DNA of 45,923 nt, from NCBI RefSeq assembly GCF_015732285.1, contig NZ_WIQU01000030.1, positions 1-45,923 of the forward strand, read 5' to 3'. The notes below the pieces were generated by a model that saw only the letters and a program-made list of their open reading frames with translations, ran no database searches and was not told where the DNA came from. Position numbers and translations under genes: made by a program. The DNA is from Pectinatus frisingensis. GTDB lineage: Bacteria; Bacillota; Negativicutes; Selenomonadales; Selenomonadaceae. Positions 1 to 43,636 of the stretch are shown here, piece after piece; within the stretch, counting starts at the first letter, position 1; each line of letters opens with the position of its first letter.

Positions 1-52
1 ACCCTCCCGACATGGCGCTTACACCATGCCACCCTCCCTGTTAAGGAGGGCT
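1..52. repeat. Palindromic intergenic repeat (REP/MITE-like), left edge
   Basis: Two consecutive hairpins are visible: an imperfect one around CATGGCG...CACCATG (about 11-28) and CCCTCC/GGAGGG (about 33-50). The layout (CCCTC start, hairpin, CCCTCC hairpin, GCTTT end) resembles the reverse complement of the repeat at the right edge of the window. This looks like a dispersed non-coding repeat; its left end may lie outside the window. Confidence 0.5.
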
Positions 53-129
53 TTAAAGAGCGTAATTTATTAATGATTCCAAGAGTAGACAAAAGAATAA
101 GCTGTATATTTTTTGCCTGCCAAATATTT

Positions 130-206
130 GTGTGTCAATACGGCAATGACAGTGTGTTAAAATATTATGAATGTGCTTCAGTGTGTTACTTGATAGTGTG
201 TCAATA
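130..206 (+). promoter_or_regulatory. Cluster of GTGTGTYA repeats, possible enhancer (UAS) of the Man-PTS operon
   Basis: The octamer GTGTGTYA occurs four times on the plus strand, at 130-137, 152-159, 181-188 and 196-203. Longer shared words are GTGTGTCAATA (130 and 196) and CAGTGTGTTA (150 and 179). An inverted relative, GACACACAA, lies at 252-260. The cluster sits about 60-135 bp upstream of the sigma-54 promoter at 265-280, where enhancer-binding proteins usually bind. That it binds a LevR/ManR-type activator is inference; no such activator is encoded in this window. Confidence 0.5.
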
Positions 207-264
207 TCGAAATAGCCTTTATAAAACGCTGATAAATAAAGCACCTGAACCGACACACAAAAGT

Positions 265-280
265 TGGCACGCATTTTGCA
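265..280 (+). promoter_or_regulatory. Sigma-54 (RpoN) -24/-12 promoter
   Basis: The sequence is TGGCACG, four bases (CATT), then TTGCA. It matches the classical RpoN consensus in both elements, with the GG (266-267) and GC (278-279) at the required 10-bp spacing. It lies 36 bp before the EIIA start codon. Man-family PTS operons in Firmicutes (lev in Bacillus, mpt in Listeria) are known to be sigma-54 controlled, so motif and context agree. It also shows that coding must begin at 316, not upstream. Confidence 0.85.
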
Positions 281-315
281 TATTAAAAGTAGTAAAAGAT
301 GAGGGAGGGAAGAAG

Positions 316-759
316 ATGCTTGGAATTATTGTAGCTACTCATGGACACTTAGCTGAAGAATTAGTTAATACCTGTGCAATGATTTGCGGGAAACCAGATA
401 ATTTAAAAACCGTTACACTGGTTCCAGGAGAGGGACCTGATGACCTGATCACTAAATACGAAAAAGCTATTTCTGAACTCGGCATTGATAATGGAATTAT
501 TATATTGAATGATTTATTTGGTGGCAGTCCTTATAATGCAGCCTGCCGGGTAGCAGCCGATAATGAAAAATGCGGCATAGTTACCGGAGTAAATCTGCCG
601 ATGCTGGTGGAAGTTATCAACTACCGTTTGTATGCTGACGCCGATGCCACAATCATGGACGCCATGAATAAGGCAATACAGGCCGCCAGTGACGGTGTGC
701 AGAAATTTCATAAAAGTATGGTAGTGATAGAAGATGAAAACGAAGGAGACGATTTATAA
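316..759 (+). CDS. PTS mannose/fructose/sorbose-family EIIA component
   Basis: A 147-residue cytoplasmic phosphocarrier that takes phosphate from HPr and passes it to EIIB. The protein begins MLGIIVATHGH; His9 in the ATHGH motif is the expected phosphorylation site (His10 in E. coli ManX). The LFGGSPYNAA and TGVNLPML segments are typical of the EIIA-Man fold. The ATG at 316 was chosen because GAGGGAGG lies just upstream and because the reading frame further upstream overlaps the sigma-54 promoter. Unlike ManX, EIIA and EIIB are separate genes here. The stop overlaps the EIIB start (TAATG), so translation is probably coupled. The sugar cannot be told from the sequence; mannose, fructose or a hexosamine are all possible. 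Confidence 0.93.
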   Translation: MLGIIVATHGHLAEELVNTCAMICGKPDNLKTVTLVPGEGPDDLITKYEKAISELGIDNGIIILNDLFGGSPYNAACRVAADNEKCGIVTGVNLPMLVEVINYRLYADADATIMDAMNKAIQAASDGVQKFHKSMVVIEDENEGDDL

Positions 760-1238
760 TGAATATTGTATTAGCACGTATTGATGACCGTCTTATACAC
801 GGACAGGTTGCGACCGTATGGGCTAAAGTTACTAAATGCACCAGAATTATTGTCTGTGATGATGATGTAGCAGCTGATAATATTAGGGCAACTTTACTCA
901 AGCAGGTGGCCCCGCCAGGTATAAAATCCAGCGTAGTAAGCGTAGACAAAGCGGTTCGTGTTTATAATAACCCTAAATATGCAGATGATAAGTGTCTGCT
1001 GCTATTTACCAATCCAACCAGTGTACTGCGGATGGTTGAAGCCGGTGTCGATATTAAAAGCATCAACATTGGTGGAATGAGCTTTAAAGAAGGTAAACGT
1101 CAGGTCAGCGGCGCAATTTCCGTAGATGAAAAAGATGAAGCTGCATTTGAAAAACTGCACGAAAAAGGAATTGAAATGGAATGCAGGAAAGTCGACACTG
1201 ACAAAAAAGTTGATATGATGAGCCTTCTTAAAAAATAA
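759..1238 (+). CDS. PTS mannose/fructose/sorbose-family EIIB component
   Basis: A 159-residue cytoplasmic EIIB of the Man family, which transfers phosphate from EIIA to the sugar as it enters through EIIC/EIID. His14 in the N-terminal ARIDDRLIHGQV motif is the expected phosphorylated residue; family members start almost identically. The length is normal for a stand-alone EIIB (about 160). The ATG shares one base with the EIIA stop. A 254-bp non-coding gap separates it from EIIC, which is unusual because these four genes are normally tightly packed. Confidence 0.94.
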   Translation: MNIVLARIDDRLIHGQVATVWAKVTKCTRIIVCDDDVAADNIRATLLKQVAPPGIKSSVVSVDKAVRVYNNPKYADDKCLLLFTNPTSVLRMVEAGVDIKSINIGGMSFKEGKRQVSGAISVDEKDEAAFEKLHEKGIEMECRKVDTDKKVDMMSLLKK

Positions 1239-1492
1239 ATGTATTGTGGAACCTATTACTAAAGGTATCAATATTTATTCAAATTTCGCATTTATAAATG
1301 GCACTAATAGTTTATATTAAGCTTTAAGATTTTTCTTAATATGGCGGCAGGTATTATAGTATGATTTTTAGTGTTTGTACTGACAGCTGCTACAAGAGAA
1401 TCTAGTAAGTCGTTTATAGGATATAAGTTCTTGCAAAACTTTATCTGCGAAATTTGAAGGAGTTATTTATAATAATATAGGAGGTATTTACA
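1239..1492. other. Intergenic gap inside the Man-PTS operon
   Basis: A 254-bp stretch with no supportable gene. It holds an AT-rich centre and, at its 3' end, two purine-rich ribosome-binding-like runs (GAAGGAG near 1457 and AGGAGG near 1482); the second serves EIIC. I see no clear terminator hairpin and no convincing -10/-35 or sigma-54 pair. It could contain an RNA-processing site or a degraded gene, but nothing shows this directly. Confidence 0.4.
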
Positions 1493-2308
1493 ATGGTACT
1501 CAGTGGTGCTCAACTTATTGCAATTTTTATTGTTTCAGCAATCGCAGGGATGGGGAGCGTACTTGATGAATTCCAAACACATCGTCCTTTGATCGCCTGC
1601 ACACTTACCGGATTAATACTAGGAGATATGACTACCGGTATCATTATCGGTGGTACATTGGAAATGATCGCCTTAGGCTGGATGAACATAGGTGCGGCAA
1701 TGGCACCGGATTCGGCTTTGGCATCAACAATTTCAACAATTTTGGTTATTGCCGGACATCAAAGCATTGGTGCAGGTATAGCAATCGCTATGCCGCTGGC
1801 AGCAGCAGGTCAGGTGCTCACTATTTTATGCCGTACCCTGACAGTGTTTTTCCAGCATAGAGCCGATGCTTTTGCCAGAGAAGGCAATCTGCGCGGTATT
1901 GATTTATGCCATTTAGGTGCTTTGGTTATCCAGGCACTGCGTGTTGCTGTTCCTACTTTATTGGTTGCAATGTATATTGGAACCGGTGCAGTTCAAACAC
2001 TGCTCGATGCTATACCGCCAGTTATAACCGGTGGTTTGCAGATAGCCGGCGGATTCATCGTAGTAGTTGGGTATGCTATGGTTATAAACATGATGCAGGC
2101 AAATTATTTAATGCCTTTCTTCTTCCTTGGATTTGTCATTGCAGCGTTCACTAAATTCAATCTTGTAGCTTTTGGTGTAATCGGTCTTGTACTGGCTATC
2201 GTTTATATTCAGCTCAATCCTAAGTACAACAAAACTGCAGTTGCGGCACCAGCAGCGAGTTCTGCCGGTGGTAAAGATGATGATTTAGACGACGATTTGG
2301 ATGACTGA
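1493..2308 (+). CDS. PTS mannose/fructose/sorbose-family EIIC permease
   Basis: A 271-residue integral membrane protein that forms the sugar channel with EIID. It begins with a hydrophobic segment and carries the conserved GDMTTGIIIGGTLEMIALGWMNIGAAMAPD region of EIIC-Man proteins. Several further hydrophobic helices follow. The last ~15 residues are a strongly acidic tail (DDDLDDDLDD), likely cytoplasmic. AGGAGG about 8 bases upstream supports the ATG. It is followed after 20 bp by EIID. Confidence 0.93.
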   Translation: MVLSGAQLIAIFIVSAIAGMGSVLDEFQTHRPLIACTLTGLILGDMTTGIIIGGTLEMIALGWMNIGAAMAPDSALASTISTILVIAGHQSIGAGIAIAMPLAAAGQVLTILCRTLTVFFQHRADAFAREGNLRGIDLCHLGALVIQALRVAVPTLLVAMYIGTGAVQTLLDAIPPVITGGLQIAGGFIVVVGYAMVINMMQANYLMPFFFLGFVIAAFTKFNLVAFGVIGLVLAIVYIQLNPKYNKTAVAAPAASSAGGKDDDLDDDLDD

Positions 2309-2328
2309 GAGAAAGGGAGGAAAGTATC

Positions 2329-3150
2329 ATGGAAAAAAAGTTAACTAAAAGTGATTTCTTTTGGACGTTTATTCGCTCTAACTTTGCACAAGGTTCATGG
2401 AACATGGAACGTATGCAGGCACTGGGGTTTTGCTTTGGTGTAATTCCTATTATCAAAAGATTATATACTGGTGATGAACGCAAACAGGCGTTGAAACGCC
2501 ATTTGGAATTTTACAACACCCATCCATTTGTTACAGCTCCAATAATTGGTGTTGTGGCAGCTATGGAAGAACAAAGAGCCAATGGTAAGGATATCAGTGA
2601 TGGTGTTATCAATGGTTTGAAAGTTGGTATGATGGGACCTTTGGCTGGTGTTGGGGATCCTATATTCTGGGGAACTGCCCGTCCTATAACTGCATCACTC
2701 GGTGCATCGTTTGCATTGGGCGGCAGTCTTTTCGGCCCAATTTTATTCTTTGTTTTATTCAACTTGATTCGTCTGCTGGTTCGCTGGTATGGTATAAAAT
2801 ATGGTTATGAAAAAGGTACAGATGTTATTTCCGACGTAGCCGGCAATAAGCTCCAAAAGATAACAGAAGGTGCTTCTATCTTAGGGCTGTTCGTAATGGG
2901 GGCCTTGGTTAATAAATGGACATCGATGAATGTACCGGTGGTTGTATCAACTATTACTAAACAAGATGGTACTGTTGCTGTAACAACTGTCCAGACGATA
3001 CTTGACCAATTGATGCCCGGATTGCTGCCATTACTGCTGACCTTCTTATGCATCAAGCTCATGAAGAATAAAGTTAACCCTATCTGGATCATCTTTGGAT
3101 TGTTTGCAGTAGGTATATTAGGTTATTGGACAGGAATTTTGGGAATGTAA
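2329..3150 (+). CDS. PTS mannose/fructose/sorbose-family EIID permease
   Basis: A 273-residue membrane protein and obligatory partner of EIIC in Man-family PTS. It starts with the typical LTKSDFFWTFIRSNF segment and contains the family stretches NMERMQALGF, EFYNTHPF, KVGMMGPLAGVGDPIFWGT and a hydrophobic C-terminal half. The length is usual (about 275). The ribosome site GGGAGG lies just before the ATG. It is the last gene of the operon and is followed by two strong hairpins. Confidence 0.94.
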   Translation: MEKKLTKSDFFWTFIRSNFAQGSWNMERMQALGFCFGVIPIIKRLYTGDERKQALKRHLEFYNTHPFVTAPIIGVVAAMEEQRANGKDISDGVINGLKVGMMGPLAGVGDPIFWGTARPITASLGASFALGGSLFGPILFFVLFNLIRLLVRWYGIKYGYEKGTDVISDVAGNKLQKITEGASILGLFVMGALVNKWTSMNVPVVVSTITKQDGTVAVTTVQTILDQLMPGLLPLLLTFLCIKLMKNKVNPIWIIFGLFAVGILGYWTGILGM

Positions 3151-3224
3151 TTTCCTGAGACTGAGTGTGAGATAGTTGCATTTTCGCACTATTTACTATA
3201 TCCCATTCTATTTTCCACATAAAT

Positions 3225-3258
3225 TAAAAGCACTTGCGAATTTTTACAGGTGCTTTTA
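3225..3258. terminator. Intrinsic terminator after the Man-PTS operon
   Basis: A 12-bp stem (TAAAAGCACTTG with CAGGTGCTTTTA, one G-U pair) closes a 10-base loop and is followed by ATTTTG on the plus strand. It sits between two convergent transcription units. Confidence 0.75.
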
Positions 3259-3297
3259 ATTTTGTGGACTAAGATTCTTTATAGGCATAATTTAAAT

Positions 3298-3330
3298 ACC
3301 TCCCAATCAATAAAAATTTGATTGGGAGGT
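3298..3330. terminator. Second, probably bidirectional terminator
   Basis: A perfect 13-bp stem (ACCTCCCAATCAA with TTGATTGGGAGGT) and a 7-base loop, followed by TTATTTGTTG on the plus strand. It lies 28 bp beyond the stop of the minus-strand RNase J gene, so it may end both the Man-PTS transcript and the RNase J transcript. Confidence 0.8.
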
Positions 3331-5228: not shown

Positions 5229-5393
5229 AATAAGCAGGTAAAATTTGCAAAGTCATGATAAGGGGGATAGTGGTAAGTTTTAATTTTGCAGTATAAAGCT
5301 AACTGTTATTAATATACATAATAACTGGTTAAAGACTGCAGATAGTTAATAGAAGTATACAAATTTAGTTGTACAATGACAGGAGGAAAAAGA

Positions 5394-6716
5394 ATGGATG
5401 GAGCACTAATATCAAAATTTGAAAAAGTATTGATGCCGATAGCAGCCAAAATATCAAGCAATAAGTATTTACTGGCAATGCGGGACGCTTTTTCAATGGT
5501 TTTACCATTTATAATAGTCGGATCTTTTTTCGGTATTATTGAATGGGTTGTAATCGACCCTACCGGTACTATTATGGGACCGGATGGCATGAATTGGGGT
5601 GGAAAGATAACCGGTTTGACAGGTGACGCTTATCTGGCTTCAGCTTTTGTGGCAAAACTAAAAAGCCTGCAAGGGTTGTGCAATCTTGTAGTAACAATAG
5701 GTTTTGGTTGTTTTTCTTTGTTACTGGTAATAGCATTTTCTTACCGCTTGGGTGGAATTTGGGGCGGCGATAAATTTTCCACGACACTGACTAGTATCGG
5801 CTGCTTTTTAATAGTGACACCGCAGTCAATAGGCAAAGCCGGTGGATTCGGATTGGATTATTTCGGCAATAAAGGTGTGCTTTCGGCCTTGGTAGTGGCA
5901 ACTGTGGCTTCATGGGTATTTGTGAAATTATCGAACAATAAGAAAATACGGATTAATATGCCGGAAACGGTACCACCGGCAGTAGCACAGTCTTTTGCCA
6001 TACTTGTACCTGTGCTAATAACTTTAGGTGGTTTTGCGATTTTTGCAGCCTTTTTGTCATGGTATGATGTTCCGCCATTGAACGATCTTATTTATAAAAT
6101 CATTCAGGCACCATTGATGGGATTTTCACAGGGGTTAGGTTTTTCTTTGTTGTATCAGTTTGTAGTATGGTTTTTTTGGTGGTTCGGTATTCATGGACAC
6201 AATGTTACGGCTGCCATTCAAAATACAGTTTATATGCCCGCACAGCTTGCTAATCAGGCAGGCACGGCATCATATATTTTCAGCAATGGATTCTTCGAAG
6301 CCGGTCTAATGCATATTATGGGGCTTGTAATAGCCATATTCATATTTTCAAAAAAAGAAAGCTGGCGGGCAGTGGCCAAGCTTGGTGCTCCGGCAATGCT
6401 GTTCAATATACAAGAACCGATGGCCTTTGGTTTACCGATAGTTCTCAATCCAATTTTATTAGTACCTTATATAATAGCACCGCTGGCTAACACGGTGGTG
6501 GGATGGCTGGCAATATCGTCAGGGTTGGTCCCTATTTTTAAATATGTGGTGCCATGGACGATGCCGTTGTTCTTTGGCGCAACTATTGGTACAGGGTCAA
6601 TAGCCGGTGGACTATTGCAGATAGTATGGCTTATAATGGATGTATTTATTTATGCACCCTTTGTTATTGCCTCAAATCGGATAAAAGATGCTGAAGAGGA
6701 AACGGCAGACTCATGA
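5394..6716 (+). CDS. celB: PTS lactose/cellobiose-family EIIC permease
   Basis: A 440-residue membrane EIIC of the Lac/Cel (chitobiose) family, which imports a beta-linked disaccharide while it is phosphorylated. Visible family marks are the FWWFGIHGHN motif (substrate-binding His) and LFNIQEPMAFGLPIVLNP with the conserved Glu. About ten hydrophobic segments are present. AGGAGG at 5381-5386 supports the ATG at 5394; an in-frame ATG at 5376 lies before that site and is less likely. EIIA and a GH1 phospho-glycosidase follow; the matching EIIB is about 10 kb away. Given the neighbouring mannanases the substrate may be mannobiose or a glucomannan disaccharide as well as cellobiose. Confidence 0.92.
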   Translation: MDGALISKFEKVLMPIAAKISSNKYLLAMRDAFSMVLPFIIVGSFFGIIEWVVIDPTGTIMGPDGMNWGGKITGLTGDAYLASAFVAKLKSLQGLCNLVVTIGFGCFSLLLVIAFSYRLGGIWGGDKFSTTLTSIGCFLIVTPQSIGKAGGFGLDYFGNKGVLSALVVATVASWVFVKLSNNKKIRINMPETVPPAVAQSFAILVPVLITLGGFAIFAAFLSWYDVPPLNDLIYKIIQAPLMGFSQGLGFSLLYQFVVWFFWWFGIHGHNVTAAIQNTVYMPAQLANQAGTASYIFSNGFFEAGLMHIMGLVIAIFIFSKKESWRAVAKLGAPAMLFNIQEPMAFGLPIVLNPILLVPYIIAPLANTVVGWLAISSGLVPIFKYVVPWTMPLFFGATIGTGSIAGGLLQIVWLIMDVFIYAPFVIASNRIKDAEEETADS

Positions 6717-6738
6717 TTGTAAAGAGATAAATTTTCCT

Positions 6739-6755
6739 GGGGCTGCCGCATGAAC
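6739..6755 (+). repeat. Solo end of a MITE-like repeat
   Basis: GGGGCTGCCGCATGAAC resembles the terminal repeat GGGGYTGTCRCACA seen at 13877 and the GGGGCTGTCATATG end at 10327. No matching inverted end was found before the EIIA gene, so this looks like a fragment. Confidence 0.35.
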
Positions 6756-6852
6756 AGCATTGTAGTGAAAGCCGTAAACTCTCCCATTGGAAGATATACG
6801 GATTGACAATATTTACGAATATAAAAATATAAAGAATAGGAGATTTGGAAAA

Positions 6853-7182
6853 GTGGATGAAAAAATTGTAGAACAATCCATGCAGCTGATACTACACGCC
6901 GGCACAGGCAGATCAATGGTAATAGAAGCAGTCAATAATTTGGCAGAAAACGGTGATGCAGCAGCAGCCCGCAAAAAAATTGAAGCTGCCGGCAAGGAAA
7001 TAGGGGCGGCGCATGATATTCAAACAGCCTTAATTTCCGCCGAATGTGATGGTAAGGAAGTTGAAAAATCAATATTGCTGATACATGCCCAGGATCATTT
7101 CATGACGGCTTTGGCAATTCGCGACATGGGACAGCTGATGGTAAAGATGTACGAATCACTGAGTAAAAAAACAGCTGACTGA
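6853..7182 (+). CDS. celC: PTS lactose/cellobiose-family EIIA component
   Basis: A 109-residue helical EIIA of the Lac family. His78 in the motif IHAQDHFMTA corresponds to the phosphorylated His of LacA/ChbA-type proteins. GTG at 6853 was chosen because AGGAG lies 10 bases upstream and the length then fits the family (about 105); an in-frame TTG at 6787 has no good ribosome site. It follows EIIC after 136 bp and precedes the GH1 gene. It should pass phosphate from HPr to the EIIB at 16875. Confidence 0.9.
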   Translation: MDEKIVEQSMQLILHAGTGRSMVIEAVNNLAENGDAAAARKKIEAAGKEIGAAHDIQTALISAECDGKEVEKSILLIHAQDHFMTALAIRDMGQLMVKMYESLSKKTAD

Positions 7183-7381
7183 GGGGATGTCCTAAAACCA
7201 TATATTATACAAATGTTTAAGGAATATACCCTAGGCAGGGCATATAGGCCATTTCGTGTTATTGAAATAAATTTTTCCTTCTTTGAGGAAACTAACAGCG
7301 AGTGATCAGACATAGTAAATATTCTGTAAACAAGCAGCAAATAACATTTCATAAATTTTATCAATAAAGGAAGGAAAAAGA
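7183..7381. other. Intergenic spacer between EIIA and GH1
   Basis: A 199-bp stretch with no supportable gene. It is AT-rich with a short CCTAGGCAGGGCATATAGG segment. AAGGAAGG before 7382 serves the GH1 gene. No clear terminator was seen, so read-through from the PTS genes is likely. Confidence 0.35.
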
Positions 7382-8785
7382 ATGGGTGTGAATATAAAAT
7401 ATAATTTTCCGGCAGATTTTTGGTGGGGTGCAGCAACATCTGGTCCACAGACAGAAGGCCGTTTTTATAAGAGACACGATAATGTTTTCGATTATTGGTT
7501 TGATAGGGAACCACAAGAATTTTTCAACCAGGTCGGTCCCAATGTGACTTCCAATTTTTTTAACAGCTATAAAGAAGATATTCAGATGATGAAGTCTATT
7601 GGACTTAATTCTGTTCGTACATCAATACAATGGACGCGGTTGATAAAAGATTTTGAAACGGCACAAGTGGATGAAGACGGACTTAGATTTTACAATAATG
7701 TCATTGATGAGTTCTTGAAGGCTGGTATAATACCGGTGATAAATTTGCACCATTTTGATTTACCGGTGGAACTGTATGATAAATATGGTGGTTGGGAATC
7801 AAAAAAGGTAGTAGAGCTGTTCGTATTATTTGCCCAAAAATGTTTTTCATTATTTGGTGATAGAGTTAAATATTGGATAACATTTAATGAACCTATGGTA
7901 ATTGTCGAGGGAGAATATCTTTATCAATTCCATTATCCTAAAATTGTTGACGGCAAAAAGGCGGTCCAGGTATTATATAATCTCAATTTAGCTTCAGCCA
8001 AAGTCGTTGAGGCCTTCCATCAAACCAGATGTGCTGAAAACGGCGGCAAGATAGGAGTGGTGCTCAACCTTACACCTTCTTATCCACGTTCCCAAGCGGA
8101 AAACGACGTAAAAGCCGCTAATTTTGTCGAAGACTTTTTTAATCGCTCATTCTTGGATCCGGCTATAAAAGGGGAATTTTCCAGCTCGCTTGTAGATGTA
8201 TTGAGAAAAGATGATGTCTTGTGGGAGGCAACACCGGAAGAATTGGCAATAATACGCAATAATACGGTGGATTATCTGGGAGTCAACTACTACCAGCCGC
8301 GCCGGGCCAAAGCCAAGGAAGCCCCCTTTGATAAATCTAAAAGCTGGATGCCGGACAAATATTTTGATGATTATAAACTGCCAGGATGCCGGATGAACCC
8401 ATACCGCGGCTGGGAGATATATCCCCAGGCCATTTATGATATTGCCATGAATATTAAGAATAACTATGGTAATATCTCATGGTATCTTTCAGAAAACGGC
8501 ATGGGTGTTGAAGGTGAAGAAAAATATGTGCAAAAGGACGGCAGTATTGATGATCAGTATCGGATAGATTTTTATGAAGAACATCTTTCCTGGCTGCATA
8601 AGGCAATTAGTGAAGGAGCAAATTGCTTTGGCTTCCATGCCTGGACACCGATAGACTGCTGGTCTTGGTCCAATGCCTATAAAAACCGCTATGGTTATAT
8701 AGCCGTGGACCTTGCGACCCAGATAAAGACCATTAAAAAATCAGGTTATTGGATCAAAAAAGTAGCACAGCAAAATGGTTTCTGA
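7382..8785 (+). CDS. bglA: GH1 6-phospho-beta-glucosidase
   Basis: A 467-residue cytoplasmic family 1 glycoside hydrolase, the usual partner of a Lac/Cel PTS, which splits the phosphorylated disaccharide after import. The N-terminus carries the GH1 signature FPADFWWGAATSGPQTEG. Glu170 in TFNEP is the expected acid/base and Glu371 in SENG the nucleophile. The C-terminal half has the conserved GFHAWTPIDCWSWSNAYKNRYG aglycone region and a Lys/Tyr-rich end (KSGYWIKKV) where phospho-specific members bind phosphate. No signal peptide is present, as expected. Whether it prefers 6-phospho-glucosides or 6-phospho-mannosides cannot be decided here. Confidence 0.9.
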   Translation: MGVNIKYNFPADFWWGAATSGPQTEGRFYKRHDNVFDYWFDREPQEFFNQVGPNVTSNFFNSYKEDIQMMKSIGLNSVRTSIQWTRLIKDFETAQVDEDGLRFYNNVIDEFLKAGIIPVINLHHFDLPVELYDKYGGWESKKVVELFVLFAQKCFSLFGDRVKYWITFNEPMVIVEGEYLYQFHYPKIVDGKKAVQVLYNLNLASAKVVEAFHQTRCAENGGKIGVVLNLTPSYPRSQAENDVKAANFVEDFFNRSFLDPAIKGEFSSSLVDVLRKDDVLWEATPEELAIIRNNTVDYLGVNYYQPRRAKAKEAPFDKSKSWMPDKYFDDYKLPGCRMNPYRGWEIYPQAIYDIAMNIKNNYGNISWYLSENGMGVEGEEKYVQKDGSIDDQYRIDFYEEHLSWLHKAISEGANCFGFHAWTPIDCWSWSNAYKNRYGYIAVDLATQIKTIKKSGYWIKKVAQQNGF

Positions 8786-8793
8786 GATTAGAG

Positions 8794-8826
8794 CCCACCG
8801 GTCATGGCCTAGCTATGATCGGCGGG
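8794..8826 (+). terminator. Hairpin after the GH1 gene
   Basis: CCCACCGGTCAT pairs with ATGATCGGCGGG (12-bp stem, one mismatch, one G-U) across a 9-base loop. The following bases are TAAAAAGG, without a U-run, so termination may be weak or the hairpin may protect the 3' end. Confidence 0.5.
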
Positions 8827-8914
8827 TAAAAAGGAAGGGTATTAAGATATAGGTTTCTTGTATATATTAAGTAAATTATCATAGTATTTTAAATAAAAGA
8901 GAGGAGACTGAATA

Positions 8915-10294
8915 ATGAGATTAAAAAGATTATTGAAAACAGCAGTTATGTGCGCGTTTATCGGAGCGGTTTCCAGTACTGCTTTTGCAGCAAAGACGGA
9001 TGATACTGCATGGGAAAATCCAGATAGTAAAATATATGTTGAAAAGAAAGCTGTGCCGGATAATGCCAAGGCAAGAGTTGAAGCTCCCACGGTCAGTGAA
9101 CTGGCAGATAAGGCGCCCAAATCAATAATATTGACCGATCCCAATGCCACCAAAGAAACAGTCGGACTGTATCAATATCTGGCTGCCTTAGGGAAGACTG
9201 ATTATGTTCTTTATGGACATCAAAACGATGCACATCACAAAATGTTTTTAACTAACAGCGGAAGTAATTCCGATACTAAAGATGTCACCGGTTCTTTAGC
9301 CGGCATTGTCGGTATGGATGCGCTTTCACTTACCGGTTCGGAACTGAATCTCACCGATAGTGAAGTAGCCAAAGGTGTCACTTATGTTGATAAACTGGCC
9401 GATATTGCAATTAAAGCGTCAAAAGAAGGTGCAATAATTACTTTATCAATGCATATGCCCAACTTTGCCGAAATAAAAGATCGCGGTAAAAAAGATGGTA
9501 AATATGATTATATCGGCTATTCTCCAAATGTATTCACCGGTAACGTAGTGCAGCGCATTGTACCCGGCGGAGATTTGAATGATGTCTACACAGGATATCT
9601 TGACTTGATAGCAGACTTTGCATTGAAGCTGGAAAAGGCCGGAGTTCCGGTGATTTATCGGCCACTCCATGAACAAAACGGTTATTGGTTTTATTGGGGG
9701 GCAAAATATTGTACATCACAGGAATTTGTAAATCTTTATCACTATACAGTAAAATATCTGCGTGACGTGAGGAATGTACATAATTTCCTTTATGCTATTT
9801 CTCCTAACGGTCCTTTTAAGACGAAAGAAGAGTATCTTGACAGATACCCAGGTGACAGATATGTCGATATTATGGGTGTTGATACTTATGATGACAATCC
9901 ACCCGGACCGGCTAAATCGGATCCGTGGTTCAAGGGTTTTGCCCTGACCTTGCAGTCAGTCAATGACGCGGCAAAGCTGCACCACAAAATACCGGCTCTC
10001 ACAGAAGTAGGAATACGTGACGGTGGCAGCCTGGCAGTATCAAACAATAAAGATAAAGACTGGTTCAGCGAAGTATCAAAGATGGTAGGCAAGACAGATA
10101 TGCCATATTTCATGGTATGGTCAAATTTCGAACGTGAACCGCATAATTTCTTTGCTCCGTATATGGTAAGTAAAACTCGCGGACATGAAATGATAAATAA
10201 ATTTATTAATTATTATAATGAAAAGGATTCGATATTTGCTGATGGTGTAACTGATTACAGCCAGATGCCGACTCCGGTCATTATTAATAAATAG
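8915..10294 (+). CDS. Exported GH26 beta-mannanase (single domain)
   Basis: A 459-residue protein with a clear signal peptide (basic MRLKRLLK, hydrophobic core, STAFAA cleavage region at about residue 25). The catalytic module (about 85-440) shows GH26 marks: VLYGHQND, Glu253 in RPLHEQNG as acid/base and Glu364 in LTEVGIRDG as nucleophile, with the PYFMVWSNFE strand near the end. GH26 enzymes mostly cleave beta-1,4-mannan. No carbohydrate-binding module or surface anchor is seen, so it may act in the periplasm or be released. GAGAGGAG precedes the ATG. It is closely related to the catalytic domain of the gene at 11162. Confidence 0.92.
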   Translation: MRLKRLLKTAVMCAFIGAVSSTAFAAKTDDTAWENPDSKIYVEKKAVPDNAKARVEAPTVSELADKAPKSIILTDPNATKETVGLYQYLAALGKTDYVLYGHQNDAHHKMFLTNSGSNSDTKDVTGSLAGIVGMDALSLTGSELNLTDSEVAKGVTYVDKLADIAIKASKEGAIITLSMHMPNFAEIKDRGKKDGKYDYIGYSPNVFTGNVVQRIVPGGDLNDVYTGYLDLIADFALKLEKAGVPVIYRPLHEQNGYWFYWGAKYCTSQEFVNLYHYTVKYLRDVRNVHNFLYAISPNGPFKTKEEYLDRYPGDRYVDIMGVDTYDDNPPGPAKSDPWFKGFALTLQSVNDAAKLHHKIPALTEVGIRDGGSLAVSNNKDKDWFSEVSKMVGKTDMPYFMVWSNFEREPHNFFAPYMVSKTRGHEMINKFINYYNEKDSIFADGVTDYSQMPTPVIINK

Positions 10295-10326
10295 TCTTTC
10301 CAATTTATGTTATACCCTTTATGCTA

Positions 10327-10468
10327 GGGGCTGTCATATGCAGTATTATTAATAAATATGTAATATTCTTAGAATCTGCCCGTTTCTAATTAAGAGTGAG
10401 GTTTACTTTGTTGGGTGGCTATAGAAATTATCTATTTGTTTGAATTATATATTACATATGACAGCCCC
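10327..10468. repeat. MITE-like element with 14-bp perfect inverted ends
   Basis: GGGGCTGTCATATG (10327-10340) is repeated exactly inverted at 10455-10468, and the similarity continues loosely inward. The 142-bp element has no coding capacity and separates the first GH26 gene from the CBM gene. The outer GGGGCTGTC matches the ends of the 13877 repeat. No target duplication is obvious. It could also act as a long-stem terminator. Confidence 0.55.
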
Positions 10469-10526
10469 ACCACTTTGTTTTGAAGAAATATTAGACACGT
10501 TTTAATAAACGAGAGGAAAATAAATC

Positions 10527-11147
10527 ATGAATAGAGAGAGAATTTTAAAAAAAATATTGCCACTAGCTTTATCAGCAGTTTTATTTACCGGTGGGCTTCC
10601 TGCTGCAACGGCATTTGCTGATGCAGCAACCACTCCGATAACCTGGGATTTTTCACAAGGACTTGGTGCGTGGAAGTTTAACGGTATTTGGGATTATAAC
10701 GGAATACCGGCAGTAACATATGATTCGTCGGTAGGCGACGGTGCAATAAAGATTGCAGTAGATTATTCCAGTGTATCTAAGGAAAGCTGGAGCGAAGTAA
10801 AACTGTCGGATGGTGATATAAATCCTAATACACCGCTTAAGATGGATAATTGCAACTATCTGACTTTCGATTTTTATTATAATCCTGCTAGTATGCATGT
10901 TGGATCGTTTAAGACGAAACTGTATATAAAATCTTCCGACGGTAAGGAAGTAGTAAATGTCTGCCCGGATATCGATCTGGCATCAGGATTATCGGTTCCA
11001 GGAACAAGCCTGAAAAAGGTAAAAGTAAAGGTTCCCTTTAATGCGGTTACAGCGGATGCTGTTGATCTGGAAGTCAGTGTAGTGGGGAGTTTTACTGATT
11101 ATAAAGGTGATGTATATGTCGACAATATTACGCTGGGTCAGAAATAA
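10527..11147 (+). CDS. Stand-alone exported carbohydrate-binding protein (CBM27-like)
   Basis: A 206-residue protein with a signal peptide (residues 1 to about 33, ending ATAFADA) followed by a single beta-sandwich-like domain of about 170 residues. It has no catalytic motif. The domain (ITWDFSQGLGAWKFNG to VYVDNITLG) is clearly homologous to the N-terminal domain of the mannanase encoded immediately downstream. It resembles mannan-binding CBM27-type modules; the family is my best guess, not certain. It probably binds mannan at the cell surface or in the periplasm and may feed the GH26 enzymes. GAGAGGAAA lies before the ATG. Only 14 bp separate it from the next gene. Confidence 0.75.
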   Translation: MNRERILKKILPLALSAVLFTGGLPAATAFADAATTPITWDFSQGLGAWKFNGIWDYNGIPAVTYDSSVGDGAIKIAVDYSSVSKESWSEVKLSDGDINPNTPLKMDNCNYLTFDFYYNPASMHVGSFKTKLYIKSSDGKEVVNVCPDIDLASGLSVPGTSLKKVKVKVPFNAVTADAVDLEVSVVGSFTDYKGDVYVDNITLGQK

Positions 11148-11161
11148 AAAGGAATAATCTA

Positions 11162-13828
11162 ATGAATAAAAAATTATTAAGTAAAATTTTGCCTTTGACA
11201 TTATCAACTGGCTTTTTTTGGAGTGGTTTGCCGGCAGTCAACACGGTGTCGGTGCAGTTCACTAATGTAAACGTAGTTGAGGCGGCGAAAACAGCGGCTA
11301 AGAACTGGAATTTTTCGCATGACCTTGGATCATGGAACTACAGCGGTAAATGGGGCTATACCGGTACACCGTCACTGGAATATGATAAAGCAGTCGGCGG
11401 TGCCGGAAAACTCGATGTTGATTTTTCCGGTGATGCCGATAAAAGCTGGAGCGAAGTAAAAATAAGGCCAAGTGAGATAAATGACAGCACACCGCTGGTA
11501 TTGACCGGATATAATGTATTGACGTATAATTTTTATTTTGATGCTGCGGCAATGCAGGAAGGGGCTTTTAAAACTAAGTTATATATGAAGTCCAATACCG
11601 GCAAAGAGATAGTCAATACCTATACTGATGTGGATATGGCAGCAGCAAAGCCTGTAGCCGGTACTTCTTTAAAAAAAGTTGCGGTTCGCCTGCCATTTAC
11701 TACGGCAGATGCGGATATTACCTATATGGAACTCAGTGTGGTCGGCTGCAACACTAACTACAGAGGAGCTTTGTATGTAAACAATATCACCCTTGGACAT
11801 GAAAATGTAAAAGATGGATATGTCCAGAAAACAGCCCGGGTGATAAAAAAAGATAAGGTTGAATTGTCTGATCTTGCCCTGCCGGCACAAATAAATCTTG
11901 CCGATGGCAAGGCTTCTGAAAGTGCAGCGCAGTTAGCTGCCTATTTGAAAAGCATAACCGGTTCCGGGAAAGTATTGTATGGACACCAAAATGATATGCA
12001 CAAAAAAGCGGGTATTGGACCAAGTGATTCGGATACTTATGATATGGTCGGTGACTATCCGGCTGTCGTCGGGATCGATGGTCTGGCACTGACCGGCAGT
12101 GAAATGAGCCTGACTGATGAGGAAAAAGCGTCAGGAATGACATTTATTGACAAGGCTGTTCAAGTAGCAATAAAGGCCAAGCAAAAAGGGGCTATTATTA
12201 CTTTGTCAAATCATATGCCAAATTTTGCCGATGTGGCTAAAAGAGGAAAAGTTAACGGACAGTACGATTATTCCGGTTATTCGCCAAATGTGACCACAGG
12301 TGATGTCGTTTCACGTATAATGCCGGGTGGCGACCTTAATGGAGTATACCGGGGTTATCTTGATATGGTAGCCCAATATGATAAACGGCTGCAGGACTTA
12401 GACATTCCGGTATTATACCGTCCGTTCCATGAATGCAACGGCAGCTGGTTTTGGTGGGGTGCAGCCTTTTGTTCACCGAGCCAGTTTAAAAATTTATACC
12501 GGTATACAGAAGAGTATCTGCGTGATACTAAAGGTCTGCACAATATCCTTTATGTTTATTCCCCGGGCGGCCCTGTGACCAGTGAAGCCGATTACCTGAC
12601 ACGCTATCCAGGGGATGCTTTTGTTGATATAGTTGGATTTGACATGTATCACAGAGATCCGGCAAAAGCAGATGACTGGATGACATCACTCGATGCTACA
12701 ATGAATGTTATGAGTGCTTTTGCTAAAGATCATGATAAGATTCCGGCAGCTTCTGAAGTGGGCATCTTGGTCGGCAACAGTGCCATGCTGAAGTCGGGCA
12801 ACCAGCGTTTGGACTGGTTTAATGAAATACTGAGAAATATGTCACAGCATGGTATGGCTTACTTTATGACCTGGTCCAATTTTGATGAAACTAATTTTGA
12901 TGAACCGTATATGGTAAGCCCGTCCCGTGGGCATGAAATGGTAAACCAGTTCATTGATTTTTATAATAAGCCGCAAGTTATATTTGCCGGACAAATGCCG
13001 GATTATCGTAAAATAAAAGTTATCGAACAGGCAGCTGTAAAAACATACGGATATATTGTATCTCCCAACTCGTACAACAGAATTTTGACACCACAGACAC
13101 TAAAAGCCACTGTGTCAGGTAAGAGTGATGATGTTCAATTTGTATACAAGAAAAACGGAGTATCAGTTGCTGCTACCAAAGCGGTACAAGACGTTGTTGG
13201 TTCATATAGTGCGCAGATAACCCAGGCAGATTTGACAAAAATTGGCAAATCTATGGGAACTATAGATTTAGTCATTGATGGGAAGTCTGCTGACAGTGTG
13301 AAAGTCATATTTAACATACCACAACCGCCGAAAGACATATCGCTGGTAGATGATTTTGAAGGCTACTATGGTGACAATGGGTTGCTGCAGGCTGTTTATT
13401 CCACTAATAACGGTGCAGGATGTTCTGTAAGCGCTGCTCTGAGTGATAAACATTCAGGCGGTGACACCGGACTGGCCTTTACTTATAAAATAAATAAAAA
13501 CGGCTATGCCGGTATCATAAAAAATATGAACGGTGCTGACTGGTCGGCCTACAACGCTGTACAATTCTGGCTTACACCGGACGGTAAAAAACAAAAATTA
13601 ATTATTCAGATAAATACCAACGGTGAAGATTTTGAAGTCGATCTTTCTTCATACACTGCGGGAACGACTCCAACACTGGTAACAATTCCTTTCAGTCAAT
13701 TTAAAGGAAAGCAAAATGGCAAATTCGATAAATCCAATATCCAGCACTTTGCGATATACTGTAATACAATGGGTGATACCATAGTCGATTCGACGATGTA
13801 TTTTGATGATATTAAAGCCGTAAAATAG
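11162..13828 (+). CDS. Exported multi-domain GH26 beta-mannanase
   Basis: An 888-residue secreted enzyme. In order: signal peptide (1 to about 42); a CBM27-like module (about 46-218) homologous to the preceding gene's product; a GH26 catalytic module (about 265-620) with LYGHQND, acid/base Glu424 in RPFHECNG and nucleophile Glu532 in ASEVGILVG; an Ig/X2-like module (about 632-728); and a C-terminal beta-sandwich CBM (about 735-888, DDFEGYYGD to MYFDDIKAV) of CBM11/CBM23-like type (family uncertain). Two binding modules around the catalytic domain suit insoluble mannan. No SLH, sortase or lipobox anchor was seen. The start is supported by AAGGAAT before the ATG and by the signal peptide. Confidence 0.92.
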   Translation: MNKKLLSKILPLTLSTGFFWSGLPAVNTVSVQFTNVNVVEAAKTAAKNWNFSHDLGSWNYSGKWGYTGTPSLEYDKAVGGAGKLDVDFSGDADKSWSEVKIRPSEINDSTPLVLTGYNVLTYNFYFDAAAMQEGAFKTKLYMKSNTGKEIVNTYTDVDMAAAKPVAGTSLKKVAVRLPFTTADADITYMELSVVGCNTNYRGALYVNNITLGHENVKDGYVQKTARVIKKDKVELSDLALPAQINLADGKASESAAQLAAYLKSITGSGKVLYGHQNDMHKKAGIGPSDSDTYDMVGDYPAVVGIDGLALTGSEMSLTDEEKASGMTFIDKAVQVAIKAKQKGAIITLSNHMPNFADVAKRGKVNGQYDYSGYSPNVTTGDVVSRIMPGGDLNGVYRGYLDMVAQYDKRLQDLDIPVLYRPFHECNGSWFWWGAAFCSPSQFKNLYRYTEEYLRDTKGLHNILYVYSPGGPVTSEADYLTRYPGDAFVDIVGFDMYHRDPAKADDWMTSLDATMNVMSAFAKDHDKIPAASEVGILVGNSAMLKSGNQRLDWFNEILRNMSQHGMAYFMTWSNFDETNFDEPYMVSPSRGHEMVNQFIDFYNKPQVIFAGQMPDYRKIKVIEQAAVKTYGYIVSPNSYNRILTPQTLKATVSGKSDDVQFVYKKNGVSVAATKAVQDVVGSYSAQITQADLTKIGKSMGTIDLVIDGKSADSVKVIFNIPQPPKDISLVDDFEGYYGDNGLLQAVYSTNNGAGCSVSAALSDKHSGGDTGLAFTYKINKNGYAGIIKNMNGADWSAYNAVQFWLTPDGKKQKLIIQINTNGEDFEVDLSSYTAGTTPTLVTIPFSQFKGKQNGKFDKSNIQHFAIYCNTMGDTIVDSTMYFDDIKAVK

Positions 13829-43544: not shown

Positions 43545-43636
43545 TTTTACAAGCTGATATGTAATTATTATAATATGTGTGTTATGTTTAATTTTAATTG
43601 AGAATATTTTTAGGCCAGACAATAGTGAGGTAACAT

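Follow-up and report, generated by a model that had tools for sequence, protein, structure and literature searches.

A probable sigma-54 promoter and enhancer of a mannose-type PTS operon in Pectinatus frisingensis and its likely LevR/ManR-type activator on another contig

Control of mannose-family PTS (Man-PTS) operons by sigma-54 with LevR-type activators, the use of multiple activator sites, and activators unlinked from their targets are all in print (PMC10864463, PMC8262876, PMC6615313, PMC7438776, PMC3162934). In LevR/levDEFG of Bacillus subtilis, a Man-PTS operon has a sigma-54 promoter and an upstream activating sequence with the binding site reported at -125, and the activator combines an AAA+ domain, PRDs and an EIIA-man-like part (PMC10864463). 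A LevR-type activator and RpoN are likewise needed for the mannose/glucose PTS in the MptR-mpt system of Enterococcus faecalis, where the activator genes lie immediately upstream of their PTS genes (PMC8262876), and the same holds for ManR of Listeria with RpoN (PMC10864463). CelR-cel of Bacillus thuringiensis has three activator sites in one promoter, of which UAS2 or UAS3 lowered reporter activity when mutated and UAS1 had no significant effect (PMC10864463). In Clostridioides difficile, CD0283-CD0284 comprises a LevR-type activator and a Man-PTS with neighbouring locus numbers and a promoter TTGGCACGGCAATTGCTTA, and the operon is down in a sigL mutant (PMC7438776). Finally, a survey of sigma-54 regulons, confined to Clostridiales, described 39 activator groups with motifs and 38 activators unclustered with their targets, so that unlinking is a known arrangement; for the words of PRD activators it refers to an earlier paper, apparently Nie 2016 (Nie et al. 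2019; PMC6615313).

The window analysed here is a stretch of 45,923 bases, the whole of contig C29 in a 2.92 Mb draft genome of Pectinatus frisingensis with a completeness rating of 100%. Its left end carries what is very probably the sigma-54 promoter and enhancer of a mannose/glucose-type PTS operon under a ManR/LevR-type activator, most likely the one encoded on contig C61. The locus shares the sigma-54 promoter and, probably, the LevR-type control of the systems above and, like CelR-cel, has several sites, here serving a Man-PTS rather than a cellobiose operon. It differs from levDEFG in having four upstream words and one nearly touching the -24 box, and its likely activator gene sits on another contig, unlike the adjoining or neighbouring genes of E. 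faecalis and C. difficile. Our literature search gave no direct match for the word and the organism, and no report of a link between recognition helix and word or of an overlap with terminators; the comparative PRD-activator paper (Nie 2016), in which the ManR word and its position may stand, lay outside its coverage.

The promoter, its words and the operon

Sigma-54 promoters have the consensus TTGGCAYNNNNNTTGCW, and TGGCACG-CATT-TTGCA, read at 265-280, carries the GG and GC elements at the correct spacing, exactly the near-perfect RpoN site that a preliminary description of this DNA had claimed. A near form of the consensus is given in PMC6615313. The features are listed below; the distal words rest on word counts and promoter alignment, and the promoter on a pattern match and on bases invariant in seven aligned promoters.

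1-58, + strand: one copy of a dispersed intergenic repeat, lying at the edge of the contig and outside the switch, where the sequence left of the operon ends
130-137, + strand: distal activator word 1, GTGTGTCA
152-159, + strand: distal activator word 2, GTGTGTTA
181-188, + strand: distal activator word 3, GTGTGTTA
196-203, + strand: distal activator word 4, GTGTGTCA
251-258, - strand: proximal inverted word CGACACAC, 5 bp before TTGGCA
265-280, + strand: sigma-54 -24/-12 promoter TGGCACGCATTTTGCA
316-759, + strand: EIIA of the mannose family (TIGR00824, E 2.1e-32)
759-1238, + strand: EIIB (TIGR00854, E 7.5e-58)
1493-2308, + strand: EIIC (TIGR00822, E 2.6e-116)
2329-3150, + strand: EIID (TIGR00828, E 2.2e-129)

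The exact pattern TGGCACGN4TTGCW occurs in the window at 265-280 alone and twice in the 2.92 Mb genome, both times before PTS genes as judged by reading of the open frames. With one mismatch allowed, two matches were found in the window against 0.32 expected. One-mismatch matches to the promoter pattern number 126 against 41 in a backward control, about a threefold excess. A combined pattern, ACAC-N2-8-TGGCAY-N5-TTGC, finds in this genome the window site and one at C32:76727, the former being counted twice because of an ACACAC run. The genome encodes RpoN (PF04552, E 1.9e-57; open frame of 462 aa), the gene whose absence the preliminary description had named as evidence against its own reading. 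Together with the recurrence of activator-site-like words in the genus, this supports the sigma-54 and LevR/ManR-type control proposed there.

The same description had reported four GTGTGTYA words and an inverted relative upstream, and all five were recovered. Besides the four clustered copies, one stray copy lies at 43577 (1.56 expected in the whole window). Dinucleotide shuffles of 59-315 gave at most two copies and reached four in 0 of 20,000, a result to be read with the word having been picked after inspection of the sequence and before the test. In a control free of word choice, some 7-base word (here AGTGTGT) occurred three times in 1,226 of 20,000 shuffles (6%). Conservation is the stronger evidence for the words: in the alignment of the window with six relatives, the -24/-12 bases and the GACAC of the inverted word are invariant while most other positions have diverged, and the words within a promoter change together across relatives, as activator sites would. 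A purine-rich stretch lies between the promoter and the EIIA start codon, and an Rfam scan of the window at gathering thresholds gave zero matches.

Exact GTGTGTYA, counted in the 220 bases before -24, occurs four times in the window, and three, one, zero and three times in the same-genus relatives L074, L075, L076 and L079, which also carry shortened or altered GTGTGT/GTGTCA words; all five have TGACACAC or CGACACAC near -24. The genus g7 has GTGTCA/TGTGT words plus TGACAC, and most other members of the family and class that have a word show the GTGTATCA and TGATACAC types. The word of the window's clade thus reads as a clade variant, TGACACAC against TGATACAC in most relatives. The earlier suggestion that the enhancer word differs from known ones stands with respect to the TGATACAC- and TGATACAG-type words, including those of Bacillus, Paenibacillus and Listeria; the word is not unique, since the TGACACAC type also occurs in three genomes from the class of a Paenibacillus. 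Among 96 distinct ManR-like loci drawn from Negativicutes, Clostridia and Bacilli, 69 have a word 2-5 bp before TTGG, 57 of them at 4 bp. The usual distance of activator sites is 80-150 bp, according to PMC8262876, and the window's proximal word is far nearer to -24.

Two side observations concern the operon and its surroundings. The gap between EIIB and EIIC (1239-1492) measures 254 bp, and 97, 150 and 167 bp in three linked relatives of the same genus. To the right of the Man-PTS and RNase J genes, 5376-13828 encodes a PTS EIIC, a lactose/cellobiose-type EIIA, glycosidases (one of family 1, two of family 26) and CBM27 modules, and looks like a mannan-use cluster, consistent with a mannose PTS.

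A candidate activator away from its operon

Seven LevR-type activators with sigma-54 interaction and PRD domains are encoded in this genome, and by reading of the open frames six of them adjoin PTS genes. The exception lies at C61:105,322-108,072, followed downstream by glycosyltransferase-like genes and no PTS. Its Pfam hits comprise Sigma54_activat (E 3.8e-39), PRD in two stretches and EIIA-man, with no EIIB-gat domain among them, and it contains the GAFTGA motif. The LevR/ManR set of AAA+, PRD, EIIA-man-like and N-terminal DNA-binding parts is therefore present, the last by way of the modelled orthologue from P. cerevisiiphilus, whose DNA-binding domain AlphaFold predicts to be a winged helix with recognition residues in helix 38-50 (pLDDT about 95). 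The top structure matches of this model are MarR-type and Z-alpha winged helices, albeit weak (E about 1e-3).

Of 14 stretches fetched from relatives, 12 have an activator gene upstream of EIIA, adjacent in 11 and with one intervening gene in L112. The best match of all 12 among the seven paralogues is the C61 protein (48-81% identity, against 31-37% for the other six). The remaining two stretches are that of P. haikarae, where the activator is absent, and a contig of 3.3 kb whose first base lies 202 bases ahead of EIIA, too close to show one. On this comparison the orphan activator on C61 is most likely the regulator of the window operon.

The preliminary description had predicted an activator gene close by. 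Adjoining is the usual arrangement, though not strictly defining, and in this genome the prediction failed within the limits of the assembly: the one orthologue of the linked type is that on C61, without a PTS. The left flank of the operon is unreadable because base 1 of the window is the first base of the contig, and a second activator copy may lie in unassembled DNA to its left. An activator hidden at a contig end near the window was considered and rejected: the C52 activator is of another type and stands beside its own PTS, and that of C61 is more than 50 kb from each contig end.

The contig break at the left edge is probably due to the dispersed repeat at 1-58, which has five further copies of 88-91% identity in the genome, several at contig ends. 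Copies were seen in C24, C30, C31 and C32 (L310-L314), as part of a longer element, ccaggggagctgtcggcg...ACCCTCCCGTCATGGC...GTTAAGGAGGGCTTTAAAG, that often stands at contig ends. The rearrangement that separated operon and activator may also have taken place at this repeat. On its left the C61 activator still has the gene that stands there in P. cerevisiiphilus (78% identity) and P. brassicae, and the window retains RNase J, the right neighbour in P. brassicae and in G004 (88%), which places the break between activator and enhancer and leaves the latter with the operon. The P. haikarae activator (368,775-371,492) and EIIA (8,447-8,887) stand 360 kb apart on one contig. A quick tree that leaves out the DNA-binding part places C61 with G004 and P. 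brassicae, both of them linked (SH-aLRT 92), and from this grouping two separate breaks are likely.

Recognition helix and word

Both word forms coexist in this genome, since the Man-PTS of C8a, an activator with the helix RNNVSMELN, is preceded by GATACAC-type words. By eye, the words of the paralogues are GTGTGTCA for C61, GTGTATCA for C8a, GTGTATAG for C8b, GTGCATAA for C40b and GTGTGTTA for C40a; the last, with the helix RDNVSRDLN, has TAACACAC/GTGTGTCA words and may cross-activate the window operon. Across the 69 scored ManR-like loci, those with Arg as residue 6 of the recognition helix show the C form of the proximal word in 10 of 12, and those with any other residue the T form in 57 of 57; the 27 of 96 loci lacking a scored word are left out. 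Among these 27 are C61 and L118 of P. haikarae, which stand apart from their promoters, and L107, whose TTTTGACACTAAAAG agrees with the C form and fails the regular expression; the register is ambiguous in some C loci owing to an ACACAC run. The distal words follow the proximal one, with 20 G-form and 3 A-form words in the C loci and 5 and 169 in the T loci. As the proximal word shifts together with the distal ones, its likely reader is the activator rather than sigma-54.

Searches by helix codons, independent of promoter DNA, extended the sample. Among 245 genomes from the class of C. ljungdahlii two matches were obtained, the known L179 and the new L318, which has AACACAC before both of its -24/-12 sites. 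The 200 genomes searched from the class of a Paenibacillus gave 15 matches, seven encoding Arg by codon reading; six of these fall in an activator with a promoter, all with a G-form majority and with a word abutting -24 in three and further upstream in three, and L341, the last of the seven, did not register as an activator. Seven further activators were thus found in this way, and the G form is the majority in 7 of 7. Over all LevR types, 17 of 24 activators with Arg6 have the G form, and 60 of 68 with another residue the A form (4 G, 4 ties), for the 92 of 181 activators that could be scored, the rest being without a promoter in range, a helix pattern or two words. C61 stands outside these figures and entered the tree test of all LevR types with five G-form and no A-form words; in the counts C61 is paired with the window promoter, and L118 with that of P. 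haikarae, by assumption.

The association weakens when descent is taken into account. Sign tests on trees gave 4 concordant, 0 opposite and 1 unchanged for ManR-like activators with two outgroups (p 0.125), 5, 0 and 1 after adding L318 and L346-L348 (p 0.0625), and about 4, 0 and 2 for all LevR types (median p 0.125, range 0.0625-0.5), the trees being quick ones that lack bootstrap and carry long-branch warnings. The tree-corrected link is accordingly not significant (p 0.06-0.5) and may be called suggestive. A one-residue law for the whole LevR family was rejected, five SRYLN-type Arg6 activators having an A-form majority and four without Arg6 the G form. Moreover, residue 2 of the helix (not Asn) performs about as well on the tree as residue 6, so that their effects are not separated. 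L186 and L300, the sole scored ManR-like Arg6 activators with the T form (RNNVSRELN, TGATACAT), would be useful for doing so; for another candidate, L149 (RSNVSKELN), no promoter was found. The best reading of the word shift from TGATACAC to TGACACAC is that it followed the helix change from RNNVS[MK]ELN to RSNVSRELN.

We tentatively propose, as one possible reading, that in the ManR-like branch Arg6 selects GTGTGTCA over GTGTATCA, with the words of a promoter, the -24-proximal one included, switching together; that C61 and C8a would in this way run separate Man-PTS operons, the regulator staying matched to its operon after the parting; and that in Selenomonadaceae and relatives the words double as terminator stem base and enhancer. 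That the changes in word and helix are instead unrelated drift by descent, the apparent code being phylogeny plus chance, we regard as rather unlikely. The C-form ManR-like loci do belong mostly to one clade (Pectinatus, genus g7, L120, L160 and L292), the sign tests fall short of 0.05, and exceptions run in both directions; against this, concordant cases outside the clade include L179, the L190/L196 group, C40a of this genome, L318 and the L346-L348 group, some joined by long branches, no independent pair runs the opposite way, and in the counts given above a promoter's words change mostly as a set.

It is also quite improbable that C40a, which reads a very similar word, mainly runs the window promoter while C61 regulates something else or little. 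C40a too has Arg at helix position 6, and its own promoter bears TATAACACACATG before -24 and GTGTGTCA upstream; it has, however, its own divergent Man-PTS (by reading; EIIA found), and it is the best match of none of the 12 adjoining activators of relatives, all of which are C61 orthologues. A decaying relic left after the parting, or an operon served by another promoter, is barely plausible: on the readable sequence the operon has lost its neighbouring gene, P. haikarae shows such a parting as well and weak sigma-70-like sites number 14 against 10.9 expected in 1-3300, but the four distal words, the proximal word and the consensus -24/-12 are all intact, the four operon proteins are 71-93% identical to their counterparts in three linked relatives, and the + strand of 130-316 contains none of the 14 sigma-70-like sites listed.

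Terminators, mechanism and meaning

A terminator-like stem was found in 50 of 57 intervals between activator stop and promoter, and in 20 of the 50, counted without a shuffled control, both stem arms contain the activator word. The 20 all belong to genomes of the window's class, Selenomonadaceae included, no row from Clostridia or Bacilli qualifying, and most have [AG]ATACACT...AGTGTAT at the stem base below a variable upper stem. In L113, L114, L115, L126, L134, L141 and others, AATACACT...AGTGTATT and then a T-run stand just after the activator stop codon. By its sequence, the intrinsic terminator of the ManR gene in these genomes looks to be built from activator words at the stem base. The window has no such word-built stem. 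In a second lineage, L346-L348 from the class of a Paenibacillus, a stem of the form [GA]ACACACAT...ATGTGTGT[CT] followed by T's was seen by eye between a non-activator-like gene and the Man-PTS promoter; here too the words coincide with a terminator-like stem.

Returning to control of the window operon by C61, the activator consists of a winged-helix DNA-binding domain, an AAA+ domain with GAFTGA for sigma-54 interaction, a PRD, an EIIA-man-like part and a further PRD. It would bind the GTGTGTYA words, loop to the RNA polymerase-sigma-54 complex at 265-280 and use ATP to open the promoter, and PTS phosphorylation of the PRD and EIIA-like domains would set its activity. Both the sugar of the operon and the action of C61 on it are what we infer.

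The analysis gives an orphaned-looking operon a likely regulator and offers, here and in P. haikarae, a concrete case in which a sigma-54 enhancer stays with its operon while the activator gene stands elsewhere. If the link between helix and word is true, the sequence of a LevR-family activator could serve to predict its binding words, and orphan activators could be matched to targets far away.
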